Positions 19,680 to 39,000 of a DNA stretch of 44,997 nucleotides are shown here, piece by piece. Position 1 is the stretch's first letter; every line of letters begins with the position of its first letter. This DNA is from Planctomycetia bacterium. GTDB lineage: Bacteria > Planctomycetota > Phycisphaerae > Phycisphaerales > SM1A02. The position numbers and the translations under genes were made by a program. The notes under the pieces are model-generated. The model did no database searches. It was not told where the DNA came from and saw only the letters and a list, made by a program, of their open reading frames with translations. The stretch covers positions 1 through 44,997 of the forward strand of contig SXUI01000023.1 in NCBI GenBank assembly GCA_005790605.1, read 5' to 3'.

Positions 19680-19686
19680 CCCATTG

Positions 19687-19865: not shown

Positions 19866-22124
19866 ATGAAGATTCGACCGAAGCATGCTCTCACTCTTCT
19901 CGCCGCGGCTGCCATGGTGGTGCTTCCGACCTTCGCGCATGAGGGCGATGGAAAGGCGCGCGATCGACAGAAGCCAGTCCGCGGTCCTGTCTACCGCGCG
20001 GCCGAAGGCGGCGTCGCGGGCGAGTCGTTTGCAGCCAGCGGTGTTGCACTCAAGAGTTGGTTCCCACTCAACACCCTCGATGCTGCCGCGACGAGTGGCA
20101 ACAGCTGCTGGGGATACATCTCGCCCGCAGGTCGCGAGTACGCAATCATCGGCATCTCGAGCGGTACGGCGTGGGTGGAGATCACCGATCCAGCGAACGC
20201 GCAACTGCGCGCGTTCCGAACCGGTCCAACAAGTCTTTGGCGCGATATGCGCGTCTTCGGAACGACTTGCTACTGCGCTTCGGAAGGTGGAAGCGGCATC
20301 CAGATTTTCGACATGTCGCAACTTGACGCGACTGGCAATGTCACGGTGCTTGGCACGATCAACACTCCAACGGGCACCAATGCCGCAACGCACACGCTCG
20401 CGATTGATACGGTCAGCGGCACCCTCTTCCGTGCAGGCGGTGGTTCCAACGGCATCCGTATGTACGACGTGAATACGACGCCAGGGAATCCTCCGTATGT
20501 AGGGGCGTGGTCGTCGATTTATGTCCACGAAATGACGCCCCACACCTACACGAGTGGCGTGTACGCAGGGAAGCAAATCGCATTCTGCTGCGGTGGTGGA
20601 AATGGCGGCAACGCCAACACTGGCCTTTACATCGTGGATGTCACGAACAAGGCGGCGCCAGTGCAACTTGGGTTCGTCACCTATCCCGGCGCGCGGTACT
20701 GCCATCAGGGTTGGTTGAGCGAAGACCTGAAGTACTTCTACATCAACGACGAGCTTGACGAGGGTGCGACCACGACGACCTGCGACACGATCGTTATCAA
20801 CGTGCAGTCCTTGACCGCGCCGACCTATGTAGGCAAGTTCACCAATGGAAATCCCTCCATTGGTCACAATCTGTTCACCAAGAACGGGCTCGTCTTCGAA
20901 GCGAACTATCGCTCCGGCATGCGTGTTTTCGATTTGGGTGTGAGTCAGACGAACCCCCCAGAAGTCGCCTACTTCGACACCTACCCGGCAGGCGACGCCG
21001 CGAACTTCAACGGTCTTTGGAATGTCTGGCCATACTTCCCGAGTGGCACCATCATCGGGAGCGACCTTGAGCGCGGTCTCTTCGTCTGGCGCCTGCAAGT
21101 CGATGCGGCGAACTTTGAGTTGGTTGGAACTGCACCGACCTTCGTGAGCCCGCTCGGAACCTCGACTGTTGATATGCGAGTGTTCGCGGCTGCTGGTCAG
21201 TCGATCAATCCATCCTCGGTCAAGATGAACATCACCGGTTCGACGGGAAGTTCGGTTGATGTCTCGATGACTCCCCTCGGTGGTGATGTCTATCGTGCGA
21301 TCTTCCCAGCGGATGACTGCACGACGCTCGCTTCGTACACTTTCACGGCGTCGAACAATGCCGGTGATTCGTCGACCGATCTCAACATGCGATCGACGAC
21401 CTACGCGCTCGCGTCGACAGAAGTCTCGCTCGATGCGTTTGAAACCAACCTGGGTTGGACTGGCGGCGTTGCGGGCGATACAGCGACAGCTGGCCTCTGG
21501 GTCCGCGCGGATCCCGTTGGGACGACCGCGCAGCCAGAAGACGACCATAGCACCACTGGCACGATGTGTTGGATTACGGGCAACGGCGTGGCCGGTGGCG
21601 CGGTAGGTGCTGCGGATGTCGACGGCGGATCGGCGACGCTCTTGAGTCCCGCGCTGAACCTCGCGAGTTTCGAAGAACCCATGATCGCCTATCACCGTTG
21701 GTACTCGAACAATCAAGGAGCCTCTGCAGGACTCGACTCGATGCCGGTGGAGATTTCCGCCGACAACGGCGTGACTTGGGTGCAACTCGAGCTCGTGACC
21801 GAAAACGCTGGTGCGTGGGTGCGCAAGGCATTCCGCGTCCGCGACTTCATCACGCCAACCGCACAGGTCCGCGTTCGTTTCATCGCGCGCGATCTGGATT
21901 CCGGTAGCGTCGTGGAAGCCGGACTTGATGACTTCCACATCTACAACCTTGACTGCCCCAACACGCTGATGGGCGATCTCAACAGCGACGGCGCCGTGAA
22001 CGCAGCTGATCTTACGATCATGCTCAACGCATGGGGCTCGTCGAACGCAGCGGCAGATCTCTCGGGCAACGGCATGGTTGGCGCGGAAGATATTTCCATG
22101 CTTCTCAACGGTTGGACGGGCTGA
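19866..22124 (+). CDS. Choice-of-anchor-B (LVIVD-repeat) secreted protein with dockerin-like C-terminus
   Basis: Protein of 752 residues. ATG at 19866 has GGAG six bases upstream and begins a signal peptide (LTLLAAAAMVVLPTFA). The first ~400 residues carry LVIVD-type propeller repeats (AWVEITDPANAQLRAFR; GIQIFDMSQL; GLYIVDVTNKAAPVQLG; GMRVFDLG) of the choice-of-anchor-B family. An Ig-like segment and a beta-sandwich region follow. The last 50 residues (703-752) hold two Ca-binding dockerin-like loops: GDLNSDGAVNAADL and ADLSGNGMVGAEDI. Secreted and probably surface-retained or part of a protein assembly; partner cohesins are not in the window. Confidence 0.9.
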   Translation: MKIRPKHALTLLAAAAMVVLPTFAHEGDGKARDRQKPVRGPVYRAAEGGVAGESFAASGVALKSWFPLNTLDAAATSGNSCWGYISPAGREYAIIGISSGTAWVEITDPANAQLRAFRTGPTSLWRDMRVFGTTCYCASEGGSGIQIFDMSQLDATGNVTVLGTINTPTGTNAATHTLAIDTVSGTLFRAGGGSNGIRMYDVNTTPGNPPYVGAWSSIYVHEMTPHTYTSGVYAGKQIAFCCGGGNGGNANTGLYIVDVTNKAAPVQLGFVTYPGARYCHQGWLSEDLKYFYINDELDEGATTTTCDTIVINVQSLTAPTYVGKFTNGNPSIGHNLFTKNGLVFEANYRSGMRVFDLGVSQTNPPEVAYFDTYPAGDAANFNGLWNVWPYFPSGTIIGSDLERGLFVWRLQVDAANFELVGTAPTFVSPLGTSTVDMRVFAAAGQSINPSSVKMNITGSTGSSVDVSMTPLGGDVYRAIFPADDCTTLASYTFTASNNAGDSSTDLNMRSTTYALASTEVSLDAFETNLGWTGGVAGDTATAGLWVRADPVGTTAQPEDDHSTTGTMCWITGNGVAGGAVGAADVDGGSATLLSPALNLASFEEPMIAYHRWYSNNQGASAGLDSMPVEISADNGVTWVQLELVTENAGAWVRKAFRVRDFITPTAQVRVRFIARDLDSGSVVEAGLDDFHIYNLDCPNTLMGDLNSDGAVNAADLTIMLNAWGSSNAAADLSGNGMVGAEDISMLLNGWTG

Positions 22125-22155
22125 TTCTGCACGCAACTTGCTTTAGAGTGCGCGA

Positions 22156-22965
22156 GTGAAGTACGCACACTCGAATGCATTTCGCGCCGCTCGTGCGCTT
22201 GGAGTTTCCCTCCTCGCATTAGCGGCGTTTTTCTCGGCAGCGGCACAGGATGCTCCGGGCACACCGTCCGCTTCGAAGGGATTCAAGGTGGCGATTCCAG
22301 GGTGGACTGGTGAACTCGCATTTGTTCCATTCACCGCGGGCGATGGCTCGACGAAGTATGTTTCGACCATGGAGATTCCATGGGACCTCTTCGATGTGTT
22401 CGTGTTTTCACTCGATGAGAAGTCCGCGACCGATGCCTCGAAGGCAGTGACGAAACCTACCAAGCCGTATGTCGCCGCCGACCGCGGATTCGGTCACGCA
22501 GGGTATCCAGCGATTTCATTGAGCCACAAGAACGCGACGCAGTGCGCGCAGTGGATCGGCGCGAAGGCGAGTATCGCGGCGAGACTCCCGACCGATGCAG
22601 AGTGGCAGTTGCTCTGCGCGCAGGCGAAGATTCCGAACGATGCGCTCGCCGACTACGCGTGGACGGTAGAAAACTCGCCAGACACCACGCACAAGTGCGG
22701 GAAAAAGAAAGCGGACGCGCTTGGTTGCTTCGACTTGCTCGGCAATGCCGGTGAGTGGGTCAATGACGCCGAGCACGCGCGTTTGATGGGAGGGTCGTTT
22801 CAGGACACGCGAAGTAGTGTGGGCTGCGCAAGCATGCTCACACCAACGGAGGACTGGAACGCGAGTGATCCGCAGTTTCCAAAGTCGGTGTGGTGGCTCG
22901 CGGACGGACCGTTCTGCGGCTTCCGCGTCGTCAGTGACACCGCACCGAAGAGCACGAAGCACTAA
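22156..22965 (+). CDS. SUMF1/formylglycine-enzyme-fold secreted protein
   Basis: Protein of 269 residues from a GTG start, with a signal peptide ending near AAAQDAP. The SUMF1 (FGE-sulfatase) fold is recognised by YPAISLSHKNATQCAQWIG, ARLPTDAEWQLLC, CFDLLGNAGEWVND and GPFCGFRVV. The catalytic cysteine pair of true formylglycine-generating enzymes is not convincingly present, and no sulfatase gene is nearby, so it is probably one of the many SUMF1-fold proteins with another, unknown role. It lies 36 bp upstream of the Gfo/Idh/MocA gene. Confidence 0.85.
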   Translation: MKYAHSNAFRAARALGVSLLALAAFFSAAAQDAPGTPSASKGFKVAIPGWTGELAFVPFTAGDGSTKYVSTMEIPWDLFDVFVFSLDEKSATDASKAVTKPTKPYVAADRGFGHAGYPAISLSHKNATQCAQWIGAKASIAARLPTDAEWQLLCAQAKIPNDALADYAWTVENSPDTTHKCGKKKADALGCFDLLGNAGEWVNDAEHARLMGGSFQDTRSSVGCASMLTPTEDWNASDPQFPKSVWWLADGPFCGFRVVSDTAPKSTKH

Positions 22966-23001
22966 CCGTTCGAACACCAGCGCCACACAAAGGAACGCAA
23001 G

Positions 23002-24303
23002 ATGACCATCGACAATTCCCGCCGGACATTTTTCACTTCTACCCTCGGCGTCGGACTTGCTGCGAGCCTCGCGGTTCCAGCAGCCGTCTCCTTGTTGACC
23101 CGCGGCTCGTTTGCGCAGGGCGCGAACGGCGCTGCACCGAAGTTGCGCATCGCGGTCATCGGTTGCGGAGGTCGCGGAACGGGAGCGATGTTCAACGCCA
23201 TCGAAGCAGGGCAGTCGAGTGGCTACGAGATCGAAGTCGTCGCGCTTGGTGACTTGTTCCCTGAGCGGACCGCGCGCGCGAATGAAGGACTCGTCAAGGC
23301 GGGGCACCATGAAGTTTCCGCAGCAAGCGTGTTCAACGGATTCGACGCATACAAGCAGGTCTGCGCGAGCAATTGTGATGTGGTGATTCTCGCGACTCCA
23401 CCTGGATTTCGATCCATTCATTTCGCGGCAGCCGTCGACGCTCGGAAACATGTTTTCACTGAGAAGCCAGTTGCGGTGGACGGGCCTGGGATCCGGCGGT
23501 TCCTCGCGGCAGCCGCGAAGAGCAAAGAGTTCGGTTTGAAAGTTGTCGCGGGAACACAGCGCCGTCACGAACAGTGCTACATCGACGCGATGGCGCGCAT
23601 TCACGGCGGAGACATCGGCAAGGTCATCGCCGCGCGCTGCTACTGGAACATGGGCAGTCTCTGGAATGTCGCACCGGATGCTTCGAAGTCCGATGTCGAG
23701 AATCAGGTTCGGAACTGGCTCTATCACGCGTGGCTCTCCGGTGATCACATCGTGGAGCAGCATGTGCATCAACTCGATGTGATGCAGTGGGTGATGCAAG
23801 CGGATCCGATTTTGGTGCGGGGCGTCGGAGGTCGGCAAGTGCGAACGGACACGCAACTCTTCGGACACATCTTCGATCACTTCGGGCTCGAGTATGTCTA
23901 CCCCAACGATCGATTCGTCCTCAGCATGTGTCGCCAGCAGGATGGCACCGATGGCAAGGTCGAAGAACTGATCACAGGCAGCGAAGGCACCGCGTCTTTG
24001 CAGTCGGGCGCTGCGTCGATCACTGGACCGAAGGCTTGGAGATTCGGTGGAAAGCAGACAGGACCCTATCTGCAAGAGCACATCGATTTGCAGAATGCAA
24101 TTCGCAACAACCTCCCCGTCAACGAAGGCGAGCAGGTTGCGAAGAGCACGCTCGTCGCGATCATGGGCCGTATGGCCGCGTACTCCGGCAAGGAAGTCAC
24201 ATGGGAGCAGGCGTTGCACTCGCAAGAAGAATTGATGCCAGAGTCCGTTGAGTTTGGACCTCGGCCGCAGGCGCCCGTTGCGATCCCAGGCAAGAGCGGG
24301 TAA
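23002..24303 (+). CDS. Tat-exported Gfo/Idh/MocA-family oxidoreductase
   Basis: Protein of 433 residues. A Tat signal with SRRTFF at 6-11 and a hydrophobic stretch to about 38 (GSFAQ) precedes a Rossmann fold, IAVIGCGGRGTG, and the family motif FTEKPVAVDGPG. The C-terminal part (HVHQLDVMQWVMQADP) is the substrate half. These enzymes use NAD(P) to oxidise or reduce sugars, inositols or similar; exported members are abundant in Planctomycetota and often keep a tightly bound cofactor. The sugar substrate is unknown. Expected location: periplasm. Confidence 0.92.
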   Translation: MTIDNSRRTFFTSTLGVGLAASLAVPAAVSLLTRGSFAQGANGAAPKLRIAVIGCGGRGTGAMFNAIEAGQSSGYEIEVVALGDLFPERTARANEGLVKAGHHEVSAASVFNGFDAYKQVCASNCDVVILATPPGFRSIHFAAAVDARKHVFTEKPVAVDGPGIRRFLAAAAKSKEFGLKVVAGTQRRHEQCYIDAMARIHGGDIGKVIAARCYWNMGSLWNVAPDASKSDVENQVRNWLYHAWLSGDHIVEQHVHQLDVMQWVMQADPILVRGVGGRQVRTDTQLFGHIFDHFGLEYVYPNDRFVLSMCRQQDGTDGKVEELITGSEGTASLQSGAASITGPKAWRFGGKQTGPYLQEHIDLQNAIRNNLPVNEGEQVAKSTLVAIMGRMAAYSGKEVTWEQALHSQEELMPESVEFGPRPQAPVAIPGKSG

Positions 24304-24309
24304 GCGCGG

Positions 24310-25581
24310 CTACGCCTGCGACGCTGCGTGGCCCGCGACAAATCCGCTTGCCCACGCCCATTGGAAGTTGAATCCGCCAATGCGTCCGTCGACATCGAGG
24401 ATCTCGCCAGCAAGGTAGAGCCCTCGCTGTCTTTTGGACTCCATCGTGGCGAGGTGAATCTCGTCAAGCGGAACGCCGCCGGCTGTCGCTTCGGCATAGG
24501 TGAATCCGCGGTCGCCCGTCACCTCAAGTTGCATGGCAACGAGCGCTCGCACGAGCGTCAACCGTCGTTCGCGCGGCAATTGCTGCGGCGTGATAGTCGG
24601 TTCGATGCCTACTTCATGCAGTAACGCTCGAGCAAATCGTTCGGGAAGAAGTTCGCGCAGGACGCTGAGCACGCTGACTCCCTTGCTCGCGACGAGCAGT
24701 GCGTCGAGCGTTTCTTCACGGTGCTCCGGAAGCCAGTTGACGCGAAGTGTGACGCGCGGTTCCACGACCCGCGCGTGCGTCCAATGCCGTGAGATGTCGA
24801 GTGGCGCAGGCCCGCTGAGTCCGAAGTGGGTTGCGAGCATCGCGCCGCGCACGCTGTGTGACTTCGCTTGCCCCTCAAACTTGAATGGTGCGCCATTTTC
24901 ACGGAAGAGTGTGAGTTCGACATCAAGCGCGAGGCCGCTGAGGGCGAGCAGCCAGTGTGAGGGCGAGAGCAGGAGGGGCGCGAGCGCGGGGACGATCTGT
25001 GCGGTGAGGCTGTGTCCAAGCGCAGTTGCGAAGGCGTAGCCAGCGCCATCGGAGCCGGATTTCGGTAGTGCCTTTCCTCCGGTTGCAAGCAAGAGGCGTG
25101 GCGCGCGGAACTCGTCAAGTGCTGTTCCAACAACGAACAGTTGCTCTGTGGTGTCGAATCGCACGCTCTCAACCCGCGCGGGGTTCCGAAGTGTCACGCC
25201 CGAGTTCGTGGACGCTCGCAGCAACGCATCAAGCACCGTCCTCGCGCTGTCGGTGGTGGGGAAGAGTTTTCCGGTGTCTTCCTGCTTGAGCTCAACGCCG
25301 AGCGCGGAAAAGAAACCAATCGTCTCTCGAACTGGAAAGCGCTGCAGCACCTTGCGAATCTGTTGTGGGGTCGCTCCCGCATAGTCTCGCTCGTTGACTG
25401 CAAAGTGCGTGACATTGCAACGACCTCCACCAGCCACGAGAATTTTCGCTCCGACTGTGCGCGCGCCGTCAAGCAGAAGCACGCGTTGGCCTGCGCGAGC
25501 TGCCGTGACGGCTGCCATGAGACCAGCGGCTCCTGCGCCGATGATGATGAGGTCGGTCGCAGACGCGGCAGGCGTGCTCAT
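24310..25581 (-). CDS. BaiN/HI0933-family flavoprotein
   Basis: Protein of 423 residues from the ATG at 25581, which overlaps the M14 peptidase stop (ATGA); a longer frame to 25620 exists. The N-terminal FAD site is LIIIGAGAAGLMAA, followed by AGGGRCNVTH, and the C-terminus has YAEATAGGVPLDEI and GLYLAGEILDVDGRIGGFN, all hallmarks of the HI0933/YhiN/BaiN family (NAD(P)/FAD-dependent oxidoreductases). The physiological substrate of most members is unknown. It is the last gene of a six-gene same-strand run that begins with an ABC transporter. Confidence 0.9.
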   Translation of the reverse strand: MSTPAASATDLIIIGAGAAGLMAAVTAARAGQRVLLLDGARTVGAKILVAGGGRCNVTHFAVNERDYAGATPQQIRKVLQRFPVRETIGFFSALGVELKQEDTGKLFPTTDSARTVLDALLRASTNSGVTLRNPARVESVRFDTTEQLFVVGTALDEFRAPRLLLATGGKALPKSGSDGAGYAFATALGHSLTAQIVPALAPLLLSPSHWLLALSGLALDVELTLFRENGAPFKFEGQAKSHSVRGAMLATHFGLSGPAPLDISRHWTHARVVEPRVTLRVNWLPEHREETLDALLVASKGVSVLSVLRELLPERFARALLHEVGIEPTITPQQLPRERRLTLVRALVAMQLEVTGDRGFTYAEATAGGVPLDEIHLATMESKRQRGLYLAGEILDVDGRIGGFNFQWAWASGFVAGHAASQA

Positions 25582-27356
25582 TTCGTCGCGGTCTCTCGCA
25601 ATGCGCACGCACTGCTGCAATCGGTGGCTTTCTGAGCGGTGTACTTCGCTTGAAGTGGCGAACCTTCCGCGCCTTCAACGAGGAATCTTGCGAACAAACT
25701 TCCGCGCGATGGAACTCCGCGTTCGCAGTCGAGCACGGCAGGCGTGTCAAGTTGCTCATTGAATCCGAGGTCGAAACGGCCATTTCGGAAACCGCTCGCG
25801 ACGACGCGTACCCCATCCGGGACAGAGAGCGAGAGACGGTCGGGCAAGCCAATCCGCTTGTCGGCCGCGCGAGCCGTACGCGAGGGAATGAGCGCGTCAT
25901 TCACAATTTCAAGATCAACCTGCCAAAGCGTCGGTCCAAGCCGCTTCACACTCGCCGCTCCGAAGTGCACCCTCGGCATCTCACCCGCATGATGCATCGT
26001 GAACGCGAAGTTGCGATGGCACTCTTCCTCGAGCATCCAGGATGGTGGAATGCGTGAACTCCACTTCGTGCCGCCACCAACGAGGACCTCGCCGTGGGTT
26101 GGGTGCACCGCGTTCGTGAGCGGCGTGCGGGTTTCTTCGAAGCGCAGTTTCTCTTCCCACAGCTTCGATTGCTCCCTCGACGGCGATTGACCATTCTGCA
26201 TGATGCGCTTTTCGGTCCAAAGCTCGTTCGTGAAACTCACGATGCCAAGACTCTCGGCGAGCCAGTTCACAAACCCTCCGCGCACTGGATAGAGATCAGA
26301 GTGGATCACCATCGACTTGTATCCGGGGAGGAGAAGTTCACCAGTTGCGGCAATCGATTCGTAGACCGCGCGGTCGGCTTGCGGATACTCGCTCTCGCGC
26401 GTGGCCGCACCCGGACCTCGCAAGATCATGCCGCCCGCGTTGTGATACGCCTGACCTGCGGCAATGTTAGGTCGCGTCTGAATGAACGCGCCGATCGCCC
26501 GCGTTTCGGGATAGGAGAAAGGCCAATCACCAGCGCCGTTCTGCACATGATCCGGATGCCAATCCGCAGGCCAATTGCGATTGAGGTCGTAACCTCCGCT
26601 GCTGTCTTCGTTGACGAGTCCATCGCCATCATTGTCGATGCCTTCCATGCCGGCCATCGACCAACCACCGCGCAGGATTGTCCCGTCTGCTTTCACAGTC
26701 GGCGCGACAAACTCCATTTCATTCGCGTCGAGTTCGCTTGGGCGATACGCGCCGGTGGGGTCGCGGCGCCACATCTGGCCGATGGAGCCATCGCCATTGA
26801 TGTCGTCGGGTCCATCTTCGTCGCACACGCCGTCGCGGTCGTCATCGGTTGGTGCCTGACCGGTGCGCGCAGAACTTGAAGTGTTCAACTTTTCAAACCA
26901 GTTTTGGCGACCATCTGGATTTGCGCTTGGAACAAAGTAGAAGACGCTGCGATCGACGAGTTCGGTGATCGCTGCATTCTTGCCGTAGTGCTCGAGCAGA
27001 TACCACGCTGAATACAAGACGGTCTCGGCAGCTTGAATCTCATTGCCATGAATGTTTCCATCGATGTACATCGCTGGCTTATCGAGTTCCGAGCCGGTGG
27101 CGCGCTGTTCAAGAATGCCGACAACGATGGGCAGCCCAAGTGACGATCGCCCGATCTCGACGACAGTGAAGAGTGTCGGAAATGCTTTTTCAAGCTCTTT
27201 CATTTCCGCGACCATCGTCGGCCAATCTCGGAAGTGGTCGAAACGAAGTGAGGTCTTGGATTCGACACGCTGCTGCGGGACGGCGTGCGCGTGGTTGGCG
27301 AGCGCGCAGGCGAGCAGCGCGGCAGTGAGCCTTGCGTAGAGGTGGGTGGAGTTCAT
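25578..27356 (-). CDS. Secreted M14 zinc carboxypeptidase
   Basis: Protein of 592 residues with a signal peptide (MNSTHLYARL to about AHA25). The M14 zinc site is complete: H103 and E106 in NIHGNE, H305 in AYHNAGG; substrate residues N259-R260 in YDLNRNW and catalytic E378 in FTNELW are also present. Between them sit insertions rich in Asp/Gly that look like calcium-binding loops (DDDRDGVCDEDGPDDINGDG; DNDGDGLVNED). It should trim C-terminal residues from peptides or wall fragments outside the cytoplasm. Start overlaps the stop of the degenerate paralogue by 4 bp, and its stop overlaps the flavoprotein start by 4 bp. Confidence 0.92.
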   Translation of the reverse strand: MNSTHLYARLTAALLACALANHAHAVPQQRVESKTSLRFDHFRDWPTMVAEMKELEKAFPTLFTVVEIGRSSLGLPIVVGILEQRATGSELDKPAMYIDGNIHGNEIQAAETVLYSAWYLLEHYGKNAAITELVDRSVFYFVPSANPDGRQNWFEKLNTSSSARTGQAPTDDDRDGVCDEDGPDDINGDGSIGQMWRRDPTGAYRPSELDANEMEFVAPTVKADGTILRGGWSMAGMEGIDNDGDGLVNEDSSGGYDLNRNWPADWHPDHVQNGAGDWPFSYPETRAIGAFIQTRPNIAAGQAYHNAGGMILRGPGAATRESEYPQADRAVYESIAATGELLLPGYKSMVIHSDLYPVRGGFVNWLAESLGIVSFTNELWTEKRIMQNGQSPSREQSKLWEEKLRFEETRTPLTNAVHPTHGEVLVGGGTKWSSRIPPSWMLEEECHRNFAFTMHHAGEMPRVHFGAASVKRLGPTLWQVDLEIVNDALIPSRTARAADKRIGLPDRLSLSVPDGVRVVASGFRNGRFDLGFNEQLDTPAVLDCERGVPSRGSLFARFLVEGAEGSPLQAKYTAQKATDCSSACALRETATK

Positions 27357-29047
27357 CGTGCGGCTCCTGTCGCTGCAGGAAAAGTAATCTCGCGTTGCAT
27401 CGTCGCAAGGCCTGGTCCGTCGACTCGCAGTTGCACGCTTTCCCCTGGCGTTCCGAGCATGGTGTAGGTGAGGCGCGCAGTGGAACCGGCGAGGATGCGA
27501 TCCACACGCTCGACGGGTTTGCCGTTCTGAAGTCTCGATGGTGGAACCGAGACGCGCACGAGGATCGGCGGCCGAGCCCGCGCAACCGTATCCATCTTGG
27601 TCGTTGTAGGAAGTCCGCCGTTGTTGACGAGGACCAACTCGACTTGAAGCAGGCCATCCGCGAGTGGCGTTGTCGTGAGCGACTCGATCTCGATTCGCGG
27701 CAGTTGCGCGAGCATCGCTTTGGTGGCCTCGCCTTGCGCGATCGCAGTCTTTGCCGCTTCGATCGCGGTGGGTTGTTCGCGGAAAAACGGACGCCATCCG
27801 CCAATCTCAACGGCACCGAGTTGTGGATGCTCAAACGCTTTCCACGCGATGAATCCGCTTCCAGCGAAGACGCGGTCGGAGTACTCCAGCCATGCTTGTT
27901 GGTCGGCGTCTCCTGTGGGCACAACGGCGGGTGCTCCTTCGGGAGGTTTCGGCGCATCTGGTCGCGCGAAGGCGCTCGTTGACAGTGCCGCGATGCCGCG
28001 ATGATTCGCAAGCCAGAGCACGAGCGAACCGCCTAGGTCTCCGTGGGCGATGTCGACTGCCTTCTCGCACTTACTCGCGTCTTTCCAAACCTTCGCGAGT
28101 TCCTTGTACGACGCATGATCTTCAGCGTGATAGATCGAAGGCGTGCTGCCCGAAGCATCTTTCTCCTGAGACTCGGGAAACTCGGCAAGCGTGTCTGCCA
28201 CGCCGAAGATGAGCGCCGTCGTGATCTCGGGATGCGACGCGATGAATTCCGCGAACGCCAGCGACTCCGCGGCGCTCAGCGGATACGCGCCAGCATCAGG
28301 CGCGAACTCGGGCCATCGATGCGGGAAGTTCCGATTTACATCCGTTCCGCCGACGCCGTCTTCTGCGATGCGCCCGTCGCGATCTCGGTCACGCCCCTCC
28401 ACGAGGTATTCATGCGTCGCGTGCTCGTGTTTCTTCGAGTCAGGTGCGCGGACGATGCGACCATCGACGGTATCGATCAGGTGCGTCGGTGTGTGCAGCG
28501 GCCGAGATGGGAACCGCATCATCGTGATGAGGCCGTCACCGTTCACATCTTCAGGACCATCTTCATCGGCTGCGCCGTCACGGTCATCATCGATCGGGTC
28601 CGGAGTCGTCGCGCGAGGTGTCTTGGTCGAGGCCGCGAGCGCACGCGCGTCGGGATTGAGCACGGGAATGACGATGAGGGACGCGTGCTCAAGCGCACTG
28701 CGGTCACCGGCGAGAACGGCCTCCACTGCCGCGACAGCGCACTGGGTGGACGCGAGATGCACACCGTCAAGACCCGCGACGACGAGCAGCGCGGGTTGCG
28801 CCGACGCGCCAGGTTTCGCGATGATCCAAGCATCGAGCGGAGAACCAAGTGATGACTTGCCGAAGCTCATTCGCTTCATCCATGCACTCTCCACCGACGC
28901 GAGTTTCTGCACCCGTTCAAGGAGCGCCGCGTCGGTGGGGTAGTCGGCCGGTGCAGAGATGGAGGGTTGCGTGACCGCGGGACTCGCGGGAGGCGGAGGC
29001 GCATCCTGCAGAGCAACGCACGCGACGAAAAGAGGAAGGATCAACAT
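27353..29047 (-). CDS. Degenerate M14 carboxypeptidase homologue (probable pseudo-enzyme)
   Basis: Protein of 564 residues with a signal peptide (MLILPLFVACVALQ). It has the same layout as the next gene: GKSSLGSPL, NPDAR, Ca-loop-like insertion DDDRDGAADEDGPEDVNGDG, and VNRNFPHRW with N238-R239 kept. The zinc ligands are gone: NIHGNE is replaced by GLDGVH (H to D94, E to H97), AYHN by IFGV, and catalytic Glu by Ser in ALSTSAF. It likely binds peptides without cleaving them, or helps its active partner. The frame extends to 29245, but the ATG at 29047 gives the signal peptide. Confidence 0.85.
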   Translation of the reverse strand: MLILPLFVACVALQDAPPPPASPAVTQPSISAPADYPTDAALLERVQKLASVESAWMKRMSFGKSSLGSPLDAWIIAKPGASAQPALLVVAGLDGVHLASTQCAVAAVEAVLAGDRSALEHASLIVIPVLNPDARALAASTKTPRATTPDPIDDDRDGAADEDGPEDVNGDGLITMMRFPSRPLHTPTHLIDTVDGRIVRAPDSKKHEHATHEYLVEGRDRDRDGRIAEDGVGGTDVNRNFPHRWPEFAPDAGAYPLSAAESLAFAEFIASHPEITTALIFGVADTLAEFPESQEKDASGSTPSIYHAEDHASYKELAKVWKDASKCEKAVDIAHGDLGGSLVLWLANHRGIAALSTSAFARPDAPKPPEGAPAVVPTGDADQQAWLEYSDRVFAGSGFIAWKAFEHPQLGAVEIGGWRPFFREQPTAIEAAKTAIAQGEATKAMLAQLPRIEIESLTTTPLADGLLQVELVLVNNGGLPTTTKMDTVARARPPILVRVSVPPSRLQNGKPVERVDRILAGSTARLTYTMLGTPGESVQLRVDGPGLATMQREITFPAATGAAR

Positions 29048-29078
29048 GGTGGGCGGGCCAGAGGTGAGATTCGTGAGG

Positions 29079-29921
29079 CTAGAGACCCTGTTCGACGAGA
29101 CTATGCTTGAGCATGTAGAGACCGACGAGCCATCCGTCGACGATGTATGGTTCAACTTCAAAGACCCCTTCAATCGAGCCATACGCCATCGCGTGTCGTT
29201 GGGAGCGAGGGATGGCGCTTTGTAACTGCACTTCGACGGCGTCATACGGAGTTGGTGGAACTCCGATGCAGCAACCGTCCCACTGATTGAGCATGACGAG
29301 GCACTCGGAACTGGTGGGAGCGACTAAAGGAAACGCGAGATAACCAGCAACCCGCAGGTGCTTGCCATGCAGCAGGAGAATGCGTTCAGGGAACCCATAG
29401 TCTTGCACGCGCGGCGTGTAGGTGTCGGCGGCGCTCGCGAGAAACTCCCAACTCACGCAGTAGGGGTCGTCGATCGTTCCTTTGCCAGTGATTTTCCAGA
29501 CATCGTCCGCGATGATCGTGCCGTCCGCGAGGCTCTCAAATCGCGAGGGAACGACGCGCATCTTGCCTTCCGCGATCGCGCCCGGTGCGCCGAGTGAGAG
29601 ATTCGTGAGTGGAGTGCGCGCTTGGTTCGCGATCGAGTCGGTTTCTGATGCAGATTGCGCGCCTCCTCGCGCTGCGCTCGAAGCCGCTAGTTCATCGCTG
29701 AGGGCTTGCGCGACATCCTTGACTTGCGGTGCGCTCTCGGTCTCGTTGCTCGGCGTGACTGGAACGGTCGCCGTTGCCTCGACTCCGGTAGCGGCGGATG
29801 CGAGCAATGCTTCCTCTTGGGCGCGCGCATCGGTGTTCATGCGCGACGGCGCTTCCGGTTGGAGCAGGAGGAAAAGTGCGCCAAGCACGAGCAGGAGAGC
29901 AATGGTCCAGACGAACTTCAT
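29079..29921 (-). CDS. Membrane-anchored DUF3299-like protein
   Basis: Protein of 280 residues with one N-terminal membrane helix (about 4-20), an Ala/Ser/Thr-rich spacer (about 30-105) and a C-terminal domain. The domain matches the DUF3299 pattern: PERILLLHGKHLRVAGYLAFPL, then LVMLNQWDGCCIGVPPTPYDAVEVQL, with a Cys pair before the VPPTP motif. DUF3299 proteins are often encoded beside FtsX-like ABC permeases, as here (15 bp after the permease stop). The function is unknown; a periplasmic partner of the transporter is inferred. Confidence 0.8.
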   Translation of the reverse strand: MKFVWTIALLLVLGALFLLLQPEAPSRMNTDARAQEEALLASAATGVEATATVPVTPSNETESAPQVKDVAQALSDELAASSAARGGAQSASETDSIANQARTPLTNLSLGAPGAIAEGKMRVVPSRFESLADGTIIADDVWKITGKGTIDDPYCVSWEFLASAADTYTPRVQDYGFPERILLLHGKHLRVAGYLAFPLVAPTSSECLVMLNQWDGCCIGVPPTPYDAVEVQLQSAIPRSQRHAMAYGSIEGVFEVEPYIVDGWLVGLYMLKHSLVEQGL

Positions 29922-29936
29922 GGCGCGAGGTGCAGC

Positions 29937-31229
29937 CTATCCGAGCGGCCGCAGTTGTTTGGCGACACTCGTGCGGTACGCGAGCGTCGCAGGCACGAGA
30001 CCGGCGAGTGCAGCAAGCAAGACTGCACCCGCAGCGACTAGGATGGACGCGCGTGCGTCGAAGTCTGGGGAGATGATGAGTCCGAGACTCGCGCGAATCC
30101 ATGCCGTTGCAACGCTCATTGCGATCGCGGAAAGCAGAATGCCAAGAGTCGCCCCCGCAAATCCGATGAGCATCGCTTCAGTCAGCACGATGCCAAAGAC
30201 GCGGGCACGACTCGCCCCAAGCACCCGCAGGACAGCGATCTGTCTGCGTCGCTCTGCCATGGAGTTCACCATCGAGAGAAGGATCGCCACTGCGCTTGAG
30301 CACAGCGTCGCAACGGCGAGCGCGATGAAGATTCCATCGATGTTCGAAACGATCGCGAAGAGTTTGTCGATCTGATCAGCCGGTTGTGCAACGGTGATGG
30401 AGGTGTCTCGTCGAAGCGTGTCGAAGACCTGCTGGAGTGCGCCAGAGACGCTTGAGCCGCTTCGCGTGGGAAGTCGCAGGAGCATGCCGGTGATCTTGCG
30501 GTCTTCATCGAGTAAGTCGGCGGGAACCACCTTGCCTTCGACGCCTTCGCGCTCCCGTCGATCATGCGCGTGGAGGATCCACGAGCTTTCAAGTGAGATG
30601 AAGAGTGCTCGATCGTGCGGTGATCCAGTCGCGTCGAGAATGCCCACAACCTCAAACTCATACTCGCGATGCTCATGTCCACGGTGTTCGTTCGTTGCCT
30701 CGCCGTGCTCTCGCGAGTCACCCGAGCCATGCGTCAGGACGAGCTTCGCGCCGAGTCGAAGTCCTGTTTCGCGCGCGACGGCCGCGCCGAGGACGATTTG
30801 CATGTTGCCCTCGAAGAAACCGCCTTGGGACAGTGCCCACGGTTGCGCAACGACGGGCTCAAACCGCGTGAAGAACTCTCTCGTTGTTGCGAGGACGGGG
30901 AATCCTCGATAGCTATCGCCGAGTTGGGTCTCGACGACGAACTCCCACGGGAAGAGGGATCGAATCTCGGCGACCTTGGCGCGCGAGAGCGGTGCTCGCG
31001 GTGGGTTTGCGTAAAAAAGCCCATTGAGCACGGCGACGAGCGGGCTCTGATCCGCACTCACGAGGAGATGCGCATTGCCGCTGCCTCGTTCAAATGCCGC
31101 CTTCCCCGCGCTGCGCAGTGCGAGAATCGAGAGCAGGAGTCCTGCGCTGGTGGCGACGAGGAGCGCAGTGACGACCGTGGAAAAAAATCGAAGTCGCAAA
31201 CTTCGCAGGACGATCGTGAAGTCTGTCAT
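29937..31229 (-). CDS. FtsX-like (MacB-type) ABC transporter permease with His-rich loop
   Basis: Protein of 430 residues. One N-terminal membrane helix (about 16-38), a large extracytoplasmic domain (about 45-290), and three C-terminal helices (IFIALAVATLCSSAVAILLSM; AMLIGFAGATLGILLS; AAGAVLLAALAGLVPATL) give the MacB/LolE layout. The FtsX motif RRRQIAVLRVLGASRARVFGIVL is clear. Residues 167-187 contain five histidines (H167, H175, H182, H185, H187), suggesting metal binding. Its start overlaps the ATPase stop by 4 bp. MacB-type systems use ATP to move cargo within or out of the periplasm rather than through the membrane pore. Confidence 0.9.
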   Translation of the reverse strand: MTDFTIVLRSLRLRFFSTVVTALLVATSAGLLLSILALRSAGKAAFERGSGNAHLLVSADQSPLVAVLNGLFYANPPRAPLSRAKVAEIRSLFPWEFVVETQLGDSYRGFPVLATTREFFTRFEPVVAQPWALSQGGFFEGNMQIVLGAAVARETGLRLGAKLVLTHGSGDSREHGEATNEHRGHEHREYEFEVVGILDATGSPHDRALFISLESSWILHAHDRREREGVEGKVVPADLLDEDRKITGMLLRLPTRSGSSVSGALQQVFDTLRRDTSITVAQPADQIDKLFAIVSNIDGIFIALAVATLCSSAVAILLSMVNSMAERRRQIAVLRVLGASRARVFGIVLTEAMLIGFAGATLGILLSAIAMSVATAWIRASLGLIISPDFDARASILVAAGAVLLAALAGLVPATLAYRTSVAKQLRPLG

Positions 31230-31924
31230 CGCGTTGCTCCTTCGCGCGTCAAGTCAGCAAGTTGTTCGACGCGTGCGAACAGGGGAACGAGCGACGGGTC
31301 ATGGCTCACCACGAGGAGTGCCGCGCCCTCTGCGGCGCAATGTTCTCGAAGCAACGCGATCGCGATGCGGGCGTTCTCAGGGTCGAGACTCGCCGTTGGC
31401 TCGTCAGCGAGTACGAGGGCCGGTCTGCACACCAACGAGCGCGCAATCGCGACGCGTTGCTGTTGGCCAACCGAGAGTTCTTCGACGCGTGCGTTTGGGG
31501 CATCGATGCCAAGTTTTTCGAGCAAGGAAGCGCTGCGTGCCTGCCAATCTGCCTTGGGGATCGCGCTGAACATGAGTGCGACCAGCAGATTTTCTGCCGC
31601 AGAGAATCCCTGCAGGAGGTTGAAGGTCTGGAACACAAATCCCAACTTGGCACCGCGCAACAAGTCGCGGTTCGTCGTTGGTGCGAACAGTTCAACTCCC
31701 TCAATCGCGATCGATCCATGGCTCGGTTCAAGAAGTCCAGCGACGAGTTGCAGAAAGGTGCTTTTCCCTCCACCCGAACGGCCAACGAGCAAGCACTCAC
31801 TTGCGCGGGCAAGGTCAAACGCCTCAATGCTGAGGTGAAATCCGTTCGCACGCTCTCGTGCGGGATATGAAAATGAAAGCGCTCGAATGGAAAGTGCGCT
31901 TGGCGCGCTTGCAGCAGGCGACAT
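31226..31924 (-). CDS. ABC transporter ATP-binding protein (LolD/MacB type)
   Basis: Protein of 232 residues from the ATG at 31924 (MSPAAS); the frame stays open to 32095, but that would overrun the divergent SPFH start. Walker A is GRSGGGKST, the signature is LSVGQQQRVAIARSLVC and Walker B is ALVLADEPTASLD, followed by the switch His in VVSHD. The length and signature match LolD/MacB-type ATPases that pair with FtsX-like permeases. First gene of a same-strand run of six; it overlaps the permease by ATGA. Confidence 0.93.
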   Translation of the reverse strand: MSPAASAPSALSIRALSFSYPARERANGFHLSIEAFDLARASECLLVGRSGGGKSTFLQLVAGLLEPSHGSIAIEGVELFAPTTNRDLLRGAKLGFVFQTFNLLQGFSAAENLLVALMFSAIPKADWQARSASLLEKLGIDAPNARVEELSVGQQQRVAIARSLVCRPALVLADEPTASLDPENARIAIALLREHCAAEGAALLVVSHDPSLVPLFARVEQLADLTREGATR

Positions 31925-32006
31925 GAGTCGGACATGGTAAGGGGCTTTCCGTACCTCCGCGCAGGTGCACACCGATAGAATGCCCTCGTTGTTCACGCAC
32001 TGTGAG

Positions 32007-32012
32007 AAGGAG
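32007..32012 (+). promoter_or_regulatory. Strong ribosome binding site of the SPFH gene
   Basis: AAGGAG, eight bases before the ATG at 32021, is one of the few full Shine-Dalgarno matches in the window and fixes this start. A TAGAAT hexamer at 31976-31981 may be the -10 box, but no -35 box is seen. Confidence 0.6.
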
Positions 32013-32020
32013 TCATCATC

Positions 32021-32992
32021 ATGGCCGAAGTGAGTAGCAAACATTCCGAACAGCCACTTTCCCCGATCAACGGATGGTTGGTTTTCCCTCTTCATATGAG
32101 CTTCGCGGCAGGCGCGTTCTTCCTCTTCGCAGCGGCCGCCGATGATTTCAATCGAAACGAACTTGTGCCGTTCATCGTTGGCGGCGTCCTTTGCGTGCTC
32201 GCGTGGTTGACATGCTTCCTCGGGTACTTCATCGTCGCGCCAGGCGATAGCCGCGCGATTCTCTTTTTCGGAAAGTACTGTGGCACGGCGCGGCGAGTTG
32301 GCTTCTACTGGGTCAAGCCATTCTCAAGCAAACGGCGCGTGAGTCTCCGTGTACGAACCTTCGAAACCGGCAGTTCCGTCGGTAGCGATGTCACGAATCC
32401 AGCAACCGGCCAAGTGCTCAGCAAGGGCGTCCGTACGCGCGGCCATCCGATCAAAGTGAACGATCGCGAGGGCAATCCGATCGAGATCGCAGCCGTCGTC
32501 GTATGGCAAGTCATCGACACTGCGCAAGCGCTCTTCGATGTCGACGACTACGCGGGTTTCGTGGAGATCCAAGCGGAGAGTGCCTTGCGCAATCTCGCGA
32601 GTCAGTATCACTACGACGCCCCCGATGATCACGATACGCCGAGCCTGCGCGGGAACACCGATGTGATTGGTGGCAAACTTCGCGATGAACTGCATCAACG
32701 ACTTGCGCAAGCTGGTGTGGAAGTCCTTGAGGCGCGCATCAGTAGCCTCGCGTATGCGCCAGAGATCGCGGCGGTCATGCTTCGCCGACAACAGGCGACG
32801 GCAGTCGTGGCAGCGCGAACCAAAATTGTCGAAGGCGCTGTCGGCATGGTGGAGATGGCCCTGCATCAACTTGAAGCGCGGAAGATCGCAAGTTTCAGCG
32901 ACGCAGATCGGGTTCGCATGGTTTCGAATTTGCTTGTCGTGCTTTGCGGTGAGACGAATGCGCAGCCTGTTGTGAAAGCGGGAGTGAACTGA
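32021..32992 (+). CDS. SPFH/band 7 domain membrane protein
   Basis: Protein of 323 residues. Two N-terminal membrane helices (about 19-40 and 49-70) precede an SPFH domain (about 70-250): FIVAPGDSRAILFFGKYCGTARRVGFYW, NPIEIAAVVVWQVIDTAQALFDV, and ILARISSLAYAPEIAAVMLRRQQ-like text at the end. SPFH proteins form oligomeric membrane platforms that organise proteases or lipid domains. The start is fixed by AAGGAG. It is divergent from the ABC operon and 3 bp upstream of the DUF1080-like lipoprotein gene, with which it is probably cotranscribed. Confidence 0.9.
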   Translation: MAEVSSKHSEQPLSPINGWLVFPLHMSFAAGAFFLFAAAADDFNRNELVPFIVGGVLCVLAWLTCFLGYFIVAPGDSRAILFFGKYCGTARRVGFYWVKPFSSKRRVSLRVRTFETGSSVGSDVTNPATGQVLSKGVRTRGHPIKVNDREGNPIEIAAVVVWQVIDTAQALFDVDDYAGFVEIQAESALRNLASQYHYDAPDDHDTPSLRGNTDVIGGKLRDELHQRLAQAGVEVLEARISSLAYAPEIAAVMLRRQQATAVVAARTKIVEGAVGMVEMALHQLEARKIASFSDADRVRMVSNLLVVLCGETNAQPVVKAGVN

Positions 32993-32995
32993 CGC

Positions 32996-33625
32996 ATGCG
33001 AGCGAAGCACTTGAGAGCTTTCGTTAGATGGGGCATTGCCTGCGCAGTTGTTTCGAGTGGAATCTTGGTTTCATGTACCGCGCCTCCGACCTCGGCACCT
33101 CCGCTTGAGAGTGGATATCGACCGGTGTATGACCCAGAGACGCTCATGGGAATCACGCACGCCGATGGTCGAACGCCGGAAGGCTGGGTGACCGACGGGA
33201 GCGCACTACGGCATGCTGGGGGCGCACCGATTGCGGCACCATTGGGTTCTGGTGATTTTGAACTCACCTGTCAATGGAAGTCGAGTGGAACCTCCGCACC
33301 CAATATCGATGTCCTTGTGAGTGCGGATTTGCACGCGAAAGAAGCAGCAGAGGCATCGAATCGGATTCTGAACTACGCCGAACAGTTACCCCGTGCGCCG
33401 CAGCCGCTTGCCGCGGGTTCTTGGAATGAAGTTCGAATTCGCGTGGTTGGAGGAGATGTCTCCATGTGGCTCAATGGAGTGGAGCATCCAACCACGACGA
33501 AACTCTCGCCCGGCGATCGACACTTGCGACTTGAAGGCGGACCGGATCCGGTGTGGTTTCAACGCGTTTTGATTCGCGAAGTTGCGGGCGATGATGGAAC
33601 GCCGCCGTCACCGAACGCAGGGTGA
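32996..33625 (+). CDS. DUF1080/3-keto-disaccharide hydrolase-like lipoprotein
   Basis: Protein of 209 residues. An N-terminal signal ends ILVSC, a good lipobox, so it is probably outer- or inner-membrane tethered. The rest is a beta-sandwich resembling DUF1080 (3-keto-disaccharide hydrolase, concanavalin-like): GDFELTCQWKSSG, GSWNEVRIRVVGGDVSMWLNGVE, LEGGPDPVWFQRVLIREV. Many planctomycete proteins share this fold, and the enzymatic role is proven for few. Followed by a perfect hairpin. Confidence 0.82.
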   Translation: MRAKHLRAFVRWGIACAVVSSGILVSCTAPPTSAPPLESGYRPVYDPETLMGITHADGRTPEGWVTDGSALRHAGGAPIAAPLGSGDFELTCQWKSSGTSAPNIDVLVSADLHAKEAAEASNRILNYAEQLPRAPQPLAAGSWNEVRIRVVGGDVSMWLNGVEHPTTTKLSPGDRHLRLEGGPDPVWFQRVLIREVAGDDGTPPSPNAG

Positions 33626-36003: not shown

Positions 36004-39000
36004 TCAAGCGCGTCCGTACCCGCCACCGCCTGGCGTTTCGACGGTGAACACATCGCCTGCAGTGAGGTTGAGCGCGTGCACGCCGCCTCGGAGTTCTCTT
36101 GTGACACCGTCTTGCGAAGTGTGGAGTTCGCGACCGCTCGCGGCATGATCGCCGCCGTCGCGCCCGGCGGGTGCTTGCGTTCGCATCGAACCAAAGAAGC
36201 TCAGTTCTGCTGGCGCGAGGAACTCGTAACTACGCACGAACCCATTGCCGCCTCGATGCAGTCCGGCACCTCCAGAGTTCGGCCGAATTGCATGCCGTCG
36301 AATGAGCACGCTCGCGCGCCGCTCGAGCACATCGATGTCGGTCAGCCGAGTGTTGGACATATGGACATGCACCGCATCGGCGCCATCGGCCTCTGGTCCG
36401 GCACCAGCGCCGCCGCCGAGCGTTTCGTAGACGCTGAACTCAGCATTGCCAAACAGCACATTGTTCATCGTGGTTTGACTGTCGGCGCTCAGGTCGAGCG
36501 CTTCGATCATCGCGGCGACCACATGCTGACTCGTCTCGACATTCCCAGCGACCACTGGGGGGCACTCAGAGGGGTTGGCGGTGAACGGTGGGTTGAGCAG
36601 CCCTTCCGGAACAAACAACTCGATTGCTTCCATCAGTCCCTCGTTCATGGGAACTGGCTTGTTGAGGAAAAGCCGAAGCGTGTAGAGCACGGCCGCGCGG
36701 GTCACGCACAGTGGGGCGTTGAAGTTTCCTCGGTGCACGCCGCCGGAGCCGGTGAAGTCGATTCGGAGACGACCGTCAGGGAGTTTGCCGATCGCGACTC
36801 GAATTGGAGTTCCATCATCAAGATGCCGCTCGACCCGCCGCGGGTTTTCGAACGATGGGATGTCGGCGTTCTCGAGGGCTCGACGGAGCCGTTCCGTACT
36901 GGAGGTGAGCTCAATGGCGGCTTCAAGCGTGAAGAAGTCTTGTCCTACTTCCTCGGCAATCTCGGCGATGCGCGCGACTCCGTGCGCAATGGCCGCGAAT
37001 TGCGCGCTTAGGTCGGCGAGGTTCTCATCGGGCGCGCGAGAAGGGTACGGCGCAGCAGTGAGCCGCTTCCGCACTGCCGCTTCGTCAAAGATGCCGCGTG
37101 AAATCGCCTTGAATGGCTCGAACACAACGCCCTCTTGCGCGAGGTTCATCGCATCAGGTGGAAAGGAACCCGGCCGCGTGCCGCCGAGTTCTGCATGGTG
37201 CGCGCGTACGGCAACGAATGCGATGCGACTGCCGTCGACGAAAACTGGCGCGATCGTTGTCAGATCGGGCAGATGGGATCCACCAAACGCTGGGTGATTC
37301 GTGATCGCGACATCTCCCTCACGGAGTGCGAGTGACTCCATCACGGCACGGACGCACACTCCAAGTGCGCCAAGATGCACCGGCAAGTGCGGAGCGTTCT
37401 GCACGAGCGTGCCGCCGCTCTCAAGCACCGCGCAAGAAAAATCGAGGCGGTCGCGAATGTTTGGACTGAGCGCTGTGCGCTCGAGCAACTCACCCATACT
37501 GAGCGCGATCGCCTCAAGGCGCGCGGTGAAGAGTTCGCGAGTGGCATCACTCTGGCGCAAGACGGCGGACACCGAACGATGCGCGACGAGATCGCCACTC
37601 TCATGCACGATGGCGGTCCAGTCTTTGTCTAAGACGACTGTGTCGCCTTGACTGACGATGAGCATTGGCCCATCTAGTGAATCGCCAACTCGTAGCGACT
37701 CTCGGTCTACACGCGATGCATCGCGCCATTCCCCTTGCGAGACGAAGCGCGTGGGCGTGGATGGTGTGCTCTGGGAAGTTGGCTCGTGCGCGGCCTCGTG
37801 TACCCACGCATCGTCAAGTGCGACGCGCACGCTCACGCTTTCCACCTCAAGCCCACGCGGCGGCGCTTCGTATCCGTAGCGGGCTTTGAAGGCGCGAAGG
37901 AACTCCAGCCCCATCGCAACCACGGACGCATGCATGACTGGAAGCGAGCTCTCCTGTCCTTGAAGGCGAATGAAGACCGTCGCGCGCTCTGCGCTGCAGG
38001 TGCGCGCCACACGGGTTCCCCTCAGCAGAGCCGCCTCGGCTGTGGCTGTGGCACGCGCGACGCCGTTGTCAATGCGCGCTGCATGCGCGGCGTCGAGTGG
38101 GCAAAGCAGTGGAACCGTTGCGAACTGCGCAGACGATGCTTGTGCGACGCCGAGCGCGCACAGATAACCGGCGTCCTTTGGAAAAATGATGTGAGAAATG
38201 CGAAGCCGATCGGCGATCGCGCACGCATGTTGTCCGCCGGCGCCACCGAATGCGATGAGCGTATGGGTGGCTGGATCGTGCGCGTCGCGGACAGCGAGTC
38301 GCTCCATCGCATGCGCCATTCGTGCGTCAGCGATGTCGAGAAAGGCGCACAGCGGTCCGTCGAAGTTCGAGCTCCAGGCACCGGTGGGGCCAAGTGCGTC
38401 CACCGCGCGTGCGCTCGCTTCCGCATTGAGCGCAATACTCCCAACTTGTTGAGGGAGTCGGCCGAGAAGGAGGTTCACATCAGTGAGCGTGAGCGGACCA
38501 CCGCGATCGATCGCGGCCGGACCTGGGAATGCGCCGGCGCTTTGAGGTCCCACGCACCTCGCGCCATCGATGACAGAGCAGATGGATCCACCACCGGCGG
38601 CGACCGTATCGATCGCCAAGGACGGCGCAGCGACACACGCGCCTCCGACGCGACATTCTTCCCTTCGTGCGACACGGTCGCCTTCGATGCGCACAACATC
38701 CGTGCTCGTTCCTCCCATATCAAACCCGATCGCACGGGTGAGGCGATGCCGCTTTGCGACGGCGAGCATTGCGTTCGCTCCGCCCGCTGGACCAGAGAGC
38801 AGCGTGTCTCGCGCGAGAAAACTTCCTGCCGGTTGCAACACGCCTGCGCTTGTAAAGATGTGCACACCGGCTTGGTCGATGCCTTGGGCGGCACGATCGA
38901 CAAACGCGCGAAGCACCGGTTCGATGGAAGCGTGCACCACGGCGGTTTGGGTTCGGGTGAGGAGCCTGCCGTGGCGAGCCAAGTCACTCGCCGCGAACGC

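Follow-up and report, generated by a model that had tools for sequence, protein, structure and literature searches.

The DNA analysed here, referred to below as the window, is a stretch of 44,997 nucleotides (contig SXUI01000023.1) from assembly GCA_005790605.1 of a Planctomycetia bacterium of the order Phycisphaerales (3.03 Mb in 80 contigs; the window is contig 5). Its minus strand carries, between 24310 and 31924, a row of six genes for an ATP-binding cassette (ABC) ATPase, an FtsX-like permease, a DUF3299-like protein, an inactive M14 peptidase homologue (M14i), an active-type M14 carboxypeptidase (M14a) and a flavoprotein (Table 1), with successive junctions of −4, +15, +31, −4 and −4 bp. 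This layout was first given in a preliminary description made from the sequence alone; the six genes, their common strand and their junctions were borne out by reading frames and coordinates, and Pfam and NCBIfam agreed with the identities proposed for the ATPase, the permease, the M14 pair and the flavoprotein. The genes are probably carried on one transcript, with the promoter likely to lie in the 96-bp stretch upstream of the ATPase gene. A scan of the minus strand from 23000 to 33500 for sigma-70-like sites, which planctomycete promoters may not fit, returned nothing just upstream of 31924; its sole match (29539-29512) lies inside the cluster.

Table 1. Features of the six-gene cluster and of its upstream region (positions in the window).
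Feature	Position	Strand	Basis and remarks
ABC ATPase, ZrgC/PA4064-like, separate nucleotide-binding domain subunit	31226..31924	-	ABC_tran; first in the conserved order
FtsX/MacB-fold permease, ZrgB/PA4065-like, 430 aa	29937..31229	-	FtsX, MacB_PCD, AlphaFold/Foldseek
Permease ectodomain His cluster (H167, H185, H187, H205, D206, H220)	30570..30731	-	93-row alignment
DUF3299/ZrgE-like protein, predicted oligonucleotide/oligosaccharide-binding (OB) fold, 280 aa	29079..29921	-	hhalign; PDB fold 4HSP
WDGCCIGVPP motif, residues 214-223 of the DUF3299-like protein	29253..29282	-	113-row conservation
M14 pseudo-carboxypeptidase (inactive), DxDxDG inserts kept	27353..29047	-	40-row alignment
Active-type M14 zinc carboxypeptidase, DxDxDG inserts, signal peptide by eye	25578..27356	-	40 rows; Pfam
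HI0933/YhiN-type flavoprotein, TIGR00275	24310..25581	-	TIGR00275; adjacent in most linked loci of the window's family
Divergent intergenic stretch, 96 bp, ATPase / Band_7 gene	31925..32020	-	Likely place of the operon promoter; no Zur box found

The ATPase matched ABC_tran at 96 bits (Pfam) and resembled LolD, FtsE and DevA, scoring under the NCBIfam cut-offs of those families. The permease matched FtsX (55 bits) and MacB_PCD (30 bits), and its AlphaFold model (predicted local distance difference test, pLDDT, 87) was matched by Foldseek to PDB structures of LolCDE, MacB, YtrF, HrtBA, YbbAP and FtsX with E values down to 3e-16 and modest template modelling (TM) scores, at most 0.61 on the query. 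The permease was then aligned with 92 orthologues. H187, H205, D206 and H220 were invariant in all 93 rows; H167 was kept in 85 (C in six, gap in two) and H185 in 87. All ten plasmid-borne relatives aligned, four beside DUF2796 and DUF3299 and six beside PhoA, had H167, H187 and H220, with H205 replaced by V or W. As a control, six distinct other MacB-type proteins of the same genome (contigs C33, C49, C57, C66, C75 and C78) were compared on both strands and showed a gap or another residue at the H167, H187 and H220 columns, as did a second protein at contig C78 (L257); locus L251 was dropped, no frame in it matching the permease profile. These histidines may form a metal site, and H167/H187/H220, common to ZrgB, are proposed here as a feature defining the family.

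Membership of two better-known systems was considered and rejected. For MacAB-TolC, the ATPase is separate and not fused to the permease, HlyD was found in none of the six genes or of ten flanking genes scanned, and the cluster scored far under the cut-off of the NCBIfam MacB model. For LolCDE, the scores were 152.9 bits against a cut-off of 307.75 (LolD) and 41.9 bits against 362.45 (LolCE).

The third protein scored 14.9 bits with DUF3299 (PF11736), under the cut-off of 22, and searching the whole genome with this model gave nothing at E≤0.001, as in its 14 control genomes. Its assignment was made by profile comparison and fold and not by the Pfam cut-off. The profile of the window's family aligned with six annotated DUF3299/ZrgE proteins over 105 columns (hhalign probability 92.5, E 4.8e-7), placing GCCIGVPP on GACIHVPP of the PA4066-type proteins, and 32 of the 36 members of the family alignment matched PF11736 at E≤0.1 (best 9.6e-6). 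Within the WDGCCIGVPP motif, conservation over 113 rows was 1.00 for W214, D215, G216, C217, G220, P222 and P223 and 0.99 for C218. For the AlphaFold model (pLDDT 84.7), the only Foldseek match at E≤0.001 was PDB entry 4HSP, the P. aeruginosa DUF3299 protein PA4066 (E 1.6e-4; TM 0.49 on the target and 0.27 on the query). A PDB sequence search with the single protein found nothing, and a profile search reached 4HSP at E 0.8 only, beneath two low-complexity-looking matches. On this sequence and fold evidence the protein is taken as a distant but real DUF3299 relative; the label "DUF3299-like" of the preliminary description thus stands by profile and fold, its Pfam score being sub-threshold. An N-terminal hydrophobic helix was read by eye as a membrane anchor. 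A second DUF3299-like paralogue, free of an ATPase or permease and with no Pfam match at E≤0.001, was seen on contig 6 of the same genome (L137:9577-10251), and stand-alone paralogues were also present in five other loci of the window's family (L138-L142).

Peptidase_M14 was matched at 44 bits by the upstream copy and at 150 bits by the downstream copy (Pfam). In 40-row alignments the downstream copy kept H103, E106 and N259-R260 in every row, and H305 and E378 in 39 each, both misses being gaps; its PDB relatives were carboxypeptidases A, B and T. The upstream copy had H103 replaced by D in 38 rows and H305 by G in 37, and its position 378 was never the catalytic E. DxDxDG inserts were kept in both proteins. 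The upstream copy is, by these residues, a conserved pseudoenzyme, and the earlier pairing of an inactive with an active M14 protein was confirmed. In one genome (L047:10404-14111) the two were fused in a single frame of 1235 residues whose second half, judged by eye, had no signal peptide; M14i and M14a therefore appear to belong together. Tandem M14 genes also recurred outside the class in a sample of the phylum. Signal peptides judged by eye suggest that proteins of the cluster are secreted. The flavoprotein matched HI0933_like at 260 bits (Pfam) and TIGR00275, which we take to be the BaiN/RdsA-type family of NCBI naming, at 380.7 bits against a cut-off of 183.8, in agreement with its description as BaiN-type; it is probably a housekeeping passenger.

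Conservation was followed in 201 genomes of the order, with the window's family designated f1 and two other families f2 and f4. A DUF3299-like protein was found in 107 genomes and an M14i match in 95, the latter search also catching the active-type paralogue. Both were present in 71 genomes, the DUF3299-like protein alone in 36, M14 alone in 24 and neither in 70 (Fisher p 9e-9 without correction for descent; p 0.034 within f1). For gene order, 106 DUF3299 loci were typed, one per genome other than that of the window, with second copies in the same genome excluded. M14 adjoined the ATPase-permease-DUF3299 core in 33 of the 48 f1 loci. The complete order from ATPase to flavoprotein was typed in 23 of the 48; L065 was complete too, with its pseudo-M14 typed as active, L047 was the fusion, and the other eight linked loci lacked one or more end genes, mostly at contig ends. 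The linked loci were spread over ten f1 genera, M14i identity to the window being about 36-48% outside its genus. An in-frame start giving a 4-bp overlap was present in f1 at 39 of 41 ATPase/permease, 27 of 29 M14i/M14a and 21 of 27 M14a/flavoprotein junctions, a test which establishes that such a start codon exists, not its use. Because the order recurs in other f1 genera and the 4-bp overlaps recur with it, the arrangement appears to exceed chance. Across most of f1 the cluster holds together as a unit. By DUF3299-like protein, the nearest named relatives were metagenome assemblies with Planctomycetia, Phycisphaerales (in one case from Lake Baikal) or Planctomycetota in their titles.

Other neighbours of the core were recorded in the same loci. 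In 21 f1 loci (for example L043, L054 and L055), the window not among them, a RecG-type gene (Pfam, one representative) on the same strand ended near the ATPase start. Among 15 proteins scanned beside f2 and f4 cores, seven matched no Pfam family at E≤0.001; the others comprised T2SSE, PP-loop, S1, GalK-type, CoA-transferase and HlyD proteins, one M24 peptidase and a weak match to a hydrolase under the cut-off. The core of genus g30 in f2 (L128, L130-L134) was followed by an HlyD-type adaptor, in all six loci by clustering, and by a resistance-nodulation-division (RND) protein of about 1200 aa that clustered over six loci; one of each was scanned.

The resemblance to the Vibrio zrg locus mentioned in the preliminary description held for the first three genes. 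In Vibrio, zrgC encodes the ATPase, zrgB the permease, zrgE the DUF3299 protein and zrgA a DUF2796 protein, and the operon is Zur-repressed (PMC9817125). ZrgB is described as MacB-like and PA4066 as the ZrgE homologue (PMC9820375); PA4063 is described as a periplasmic zinc chaperone or sensor, and PA4066 as resembling an OB fold (PMC8561739). Zur regulation and an effect on growth at zinc shortage are reported for zrg and for PA4063-4066 alike (PMC9817125; PMC9820375; PMC11481552). Records from P. aeruginosa and Rhodobacterales showed the order ZrgA-ATPase-permease-DUF3299. The first three genes of the cluster are judged homologous to ZrgC-ZrgB-ZrgE and probably function in the same way.

More distant permease relatives were sought by tblastn against plasmid records (120 records; 107, largely of the same genera, in a second search with a Microvirga relative). 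From these, 24 loci were picked by hand for different organisms, not at random, and typed by tblastn and annotation. Eighteen (L151, L155, L156, L241-L243, L246-L249 and L260-L267) carried, in order, a PhoA-type alkaline phosphatase (PF00245), a small OB-like protein, an ATPase and an FtsX permease; their hosts were Deinococcota, Deinococcus radiodurans R1 (NC_000958.1) among them, and Alphaproteobacteria. In five loci ZrgA and ZrgE stood around the permease, and in one (Microvirga, L245) PhoA was replaced by a peptidase of the M20 family, in which a signal peptide was recognised by eye. Pfam backed the Microvirga peptidase and seven phosphatases; the unannotated loci L246-L248, L265 and L267 among the 18, and the Aeromonas locus among the five, were typed by tblastn alone. 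The hydrolase gene adjoined the OB-protein gene in the PhoA, M20 and M14 arrangements alike. In the PhoA-type loci the OB-like protein showed only weak kinship to DUF3299, with hhalign probabilities of 57 against the window's family and 72 against ZrgE. Zinc or a similar metal is the established cofactor of the PhoA, M14 and M20 families. We know of no name for the phoA-type loci, and the literature searches made here, which also covered DUF3299 and DUF2796, found no report of the combination described here, none joining alkaline phosphatase, an FtsX-like permease and zinc, and none joining planctomycetes, zinc carboxypeptidase and M14. A gene for the copper chaperone PCu(A)C was close by in three phoA-type loci (L156, L243 and L249).

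The reading preferred here, with a probability of about 0.42, is that the cluster encodes a Zrg-like mechanotransmission ABC machine. Working at the outer face of the inner membrane, it would handle metal and serve the zinc enzymes located there, in this case the M14 pair. The ATPase, the histidine-bearing permease and the membrane-anchored, ZrgE-like OB partner would form a type VII machine of MacB fold, in which ATP hydrolysis would probably drive movement at that outer face, as in MacB, LolCDE and FtsEX; solute transport across the membrane would not be required. A divalent metal, most likely zinc, would be handled at the conserved histidine site. We infer that it passes from the machine to extracytoplasmic zinc enzymes, and that the machine is physically coupled to its client in this lineage, the M14 carboxypeptidase, which would itself work with its pseudoenzyme twin as a chaperone, scaffold or activator. 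This reading is preferred because it joins the histidine site, the ZrgE-like partner and the recurrence of zinc-type hydrolases; the distant permease relatives beside zinc-type enzymes likewise suggest that such a machine serves zinc enzymes outside the cytoplasm. How extracytoplasmic zinc enzymes acquire their metal is, to our knowledge, poorly understood.

A wider form of the proposal is doubtful. Zrg-type systems in general would be ATP-driven metallation machines and not zinc importers of the plasma membrane, delivering zinc through the permease histidines and the OB partner to extracytoplasmic hydrolases: PhoA in Deinococcota and Alphaproteobacteria, M20 in Microvirga and the M14 pair in one Phycisphaerales-type family, with ZrgA as a soluble zinc carrier of the proteobacterial version. 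The cargo of Zrg and PA4064-4066 is disputed in the literature consulted, between zinc import (Vibrio) and pyochelin-cobalt export (2024, PMC11481552). If the family does serve extracytoplasmic zinc hydrolases, the dispute could be tested in Deinococcus radiodurans, where PhoA stands beside the machine.

Several observations weigh against a metal-serving machine, the strongest being the free separation of the two halves together with the ordinary neighbours of the core elsewhere in the order. No adjacent M14 was found in 15 of the 48 f1 loci: nine had the ATPase-permease-DUF3299 core alone, two (L074 and L081) had the flavoprotein right after DUF3299, and four had fewer genes, three of them being cut by a contig end upstream. 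M14 was linked in none of the 58 f2 and f4 loci, two of which end just downstream. The preliminary description had named free separation as evidence against its model; outside f1 this is what is seen, none of the f2 and f4 loci being linked, and it is seen in some f1 genera too, while most f1 loci keep the two halves joined. In the phylum sample of 294 genomes, the DUF3299 type was present in 60 and the M14 type in 85; outside f1, 18 genomes held both, and in the 12 of these with a listed M14 position the two were on different contigs or far apart. A tree built from 40 inactive M14 proteins, of which 32 were linked and eight, chosen by the author, unlinked, required three changes of the linked state against 7.5 in shuffles, so linkage is mostly inherited. 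The DUF3299/M14i junction overlapped in only five of 30 f1 loci. The 24 plasmid loci are relatives of one another and cannot be counted as separate events. The idea that zinc hydrolases generally accompany the core throughout the order was considered and rejected, with one metallopeptidase (M24) among the 15 f2 and f4 neighbour proteins scanned.

The zinc machinery points the same way. DUF2796 gave a 21-bit fragment only in the window's genome (cut-off 27.4); the same model, which recovers Phaeobacter ZrgA at 169 bits, exceeded its cut-off in one of the 201 genomes and in none of its 14 control genomes. A Zur box upstream of 31924, proposed as a check in the preliminary description, was looked for and not found: the window had no match at up to three mismatches, and the best upstream site had six, no better than shuffled sequence, with a proteobacterial motif that may not be the host's. 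The motif found its controls in P. aeruginosa (two mismatches), upstream of the Phaeobacter Fur gene (one) and in SC52 (two), and missed those in Sulfitobacter (six) and Aeromonas (five). Fur (once) and ZnuA (twice) exceeded their cut-offs in the same genome, so the usual zinc machinery exists beside the operon. A zrgE knock-out alone is reported to leave growth of V. cholerae unaffected (PMC9820375), and PA4064-PA4065 are described as a MacB-type exporter, with zinc-shortage phenotypes and pyochelin-cobalt as the proposed cargo (PMC11481552). Of the metal link first suggested, then, the conserved permease histidines speak for it, and the lack of a Zur box, of ZrgA above its cut-off and of constant linkage speak against it. 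The suggested transport of peptides by the ABC module found no support beyond fold-level kinship to MacB and LolCDE.

The separation of the halves would be expected if the operon held independent modules on one promoter, assembled in an ancestral member of the family and since maintained by vertical descent and translational coupling, without a shared biochemical task. Such an origin is somewhat unlikely as the full explanation. The flavoprotein beside DUF3299 at loci with no M14, the ordinary neighbours of the core and the three linkage changes on the tree fit it well; the order kept in ten f1 genera despite the low M14i identity, with its conserved overlaps, and the recurrence of zinc hydrolases beside related permeases in other phyla argue against it. 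It is distinctly improbable that the ABC machine, like FtsEX (PMC11491553), mechanically switches on an extracytoplasmic hydrolase acting on an envelope peptide, with pseudo-M14 and DUF3299 as adaptors. The type VII fold, with LolCDE, MacB, YtrF and FtsX among its matches, and the pseudoenzyme adjoining an active-type hydrolase would suit that role, which leaves the histidine site and the ZrgE kinship unexplained; moreover, by family knowledge the substrates of the linked hydrolases (phosphate esters, peptides) are unrelated, which points to metal as the factor they share. Least probable of all is export of a metal-binding compound by the core, with the M14 pair trimming or recycling a peptide-type metallophore. 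For it speak the functional data on PA4064-PA4065 (PMC11481552), the HlyD and RND genes after the core in g30 and those near an Ensifer relative, the adaptor of which comes closest to CusB/CzcB models. Against it, neither metallophore genes nor a MacA/TolC partner were found in the six genes or the flanks scanned, and the g30 RND protein had its highest score with a multidrug model, under each of the curated cut-offs displayed.

Around the operon, the window encodes a divergent Band_7/SPFH protein and a 3-keto-disaccharide hydrolase-like protein (32021-33625), and a single frame of 1271 aa that holds both Hydantoinase A and Hydantoinase B domains (36004-39819). A row of plus-strand genes (18366-24303) encodes MauG-type di-haem, dockerin-bearing and formylglycine-generating enzyme-like (FGE-like) proteins and a Gfo/Idh/MocA oxidoreductase.

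Compared with known systems, the permease has the fold of the type VII ABC machines LolCDE, MacAB-TolC and FtsEX; unlike in those, a lipoprotein-release, MacA/TolC or EnvC partner was not found among the six genes. The closest likeness is to Zrg/PA4063-4066, with which the cluster has in common a separate ATPase, a MacB-type permease with H167/H187/H220 and a DUF3299 OB-fold protein, in the order of the P. aeruginosa and Rhodobacterales records, 4HSP being the best fold match of that protein. It differs in its additional invariant H205, in a long stretch N-terminal to the DUF3299 domain that includes a hydrophobic helix, in the added M14 pair and flavoprotein, and in that ZrgA and a Zur box were not found. 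Because of these two absences, and because the DUF3299 cut-off was not reached, the cluster is described as a Zrg-like variant and not as a Zrg system.

The phoA-type loci resemble it in a related permease with the same three histidines (six of six aligned) and in a small OB-like protein whose gene adjoins that of a zinc-type hydrolase; there, unlike in the window, the hydrolase is PhoA (M20 once), single and upstream, and the OB protein carries a CPFC motif and is only weakly akin to DUF3299. Inactive M14 units are likewise known among the M14 pseudopeptidases, namely domain III of vertebrate carboxypeptidase D (CPD), CPXM1/2 and AEBP1, and yeast Ecm14, and CPD joins active and inactive units on one chain as L047 does here. 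The table of M14 pseudopeptidases in PMC11266112 lists no bacterial entry in the part consulted, and the H to D and H to G ligand losses seen here differ from those tabulated there. Unlike the vertebrate and yeast proteins, the pair described here is bacterial, is encoded by two genes and carries DxDxDG inserts, and it provides a model, in bacteria, for an active-type enzyme maintained alongside a dedicated pseudoenzyme.

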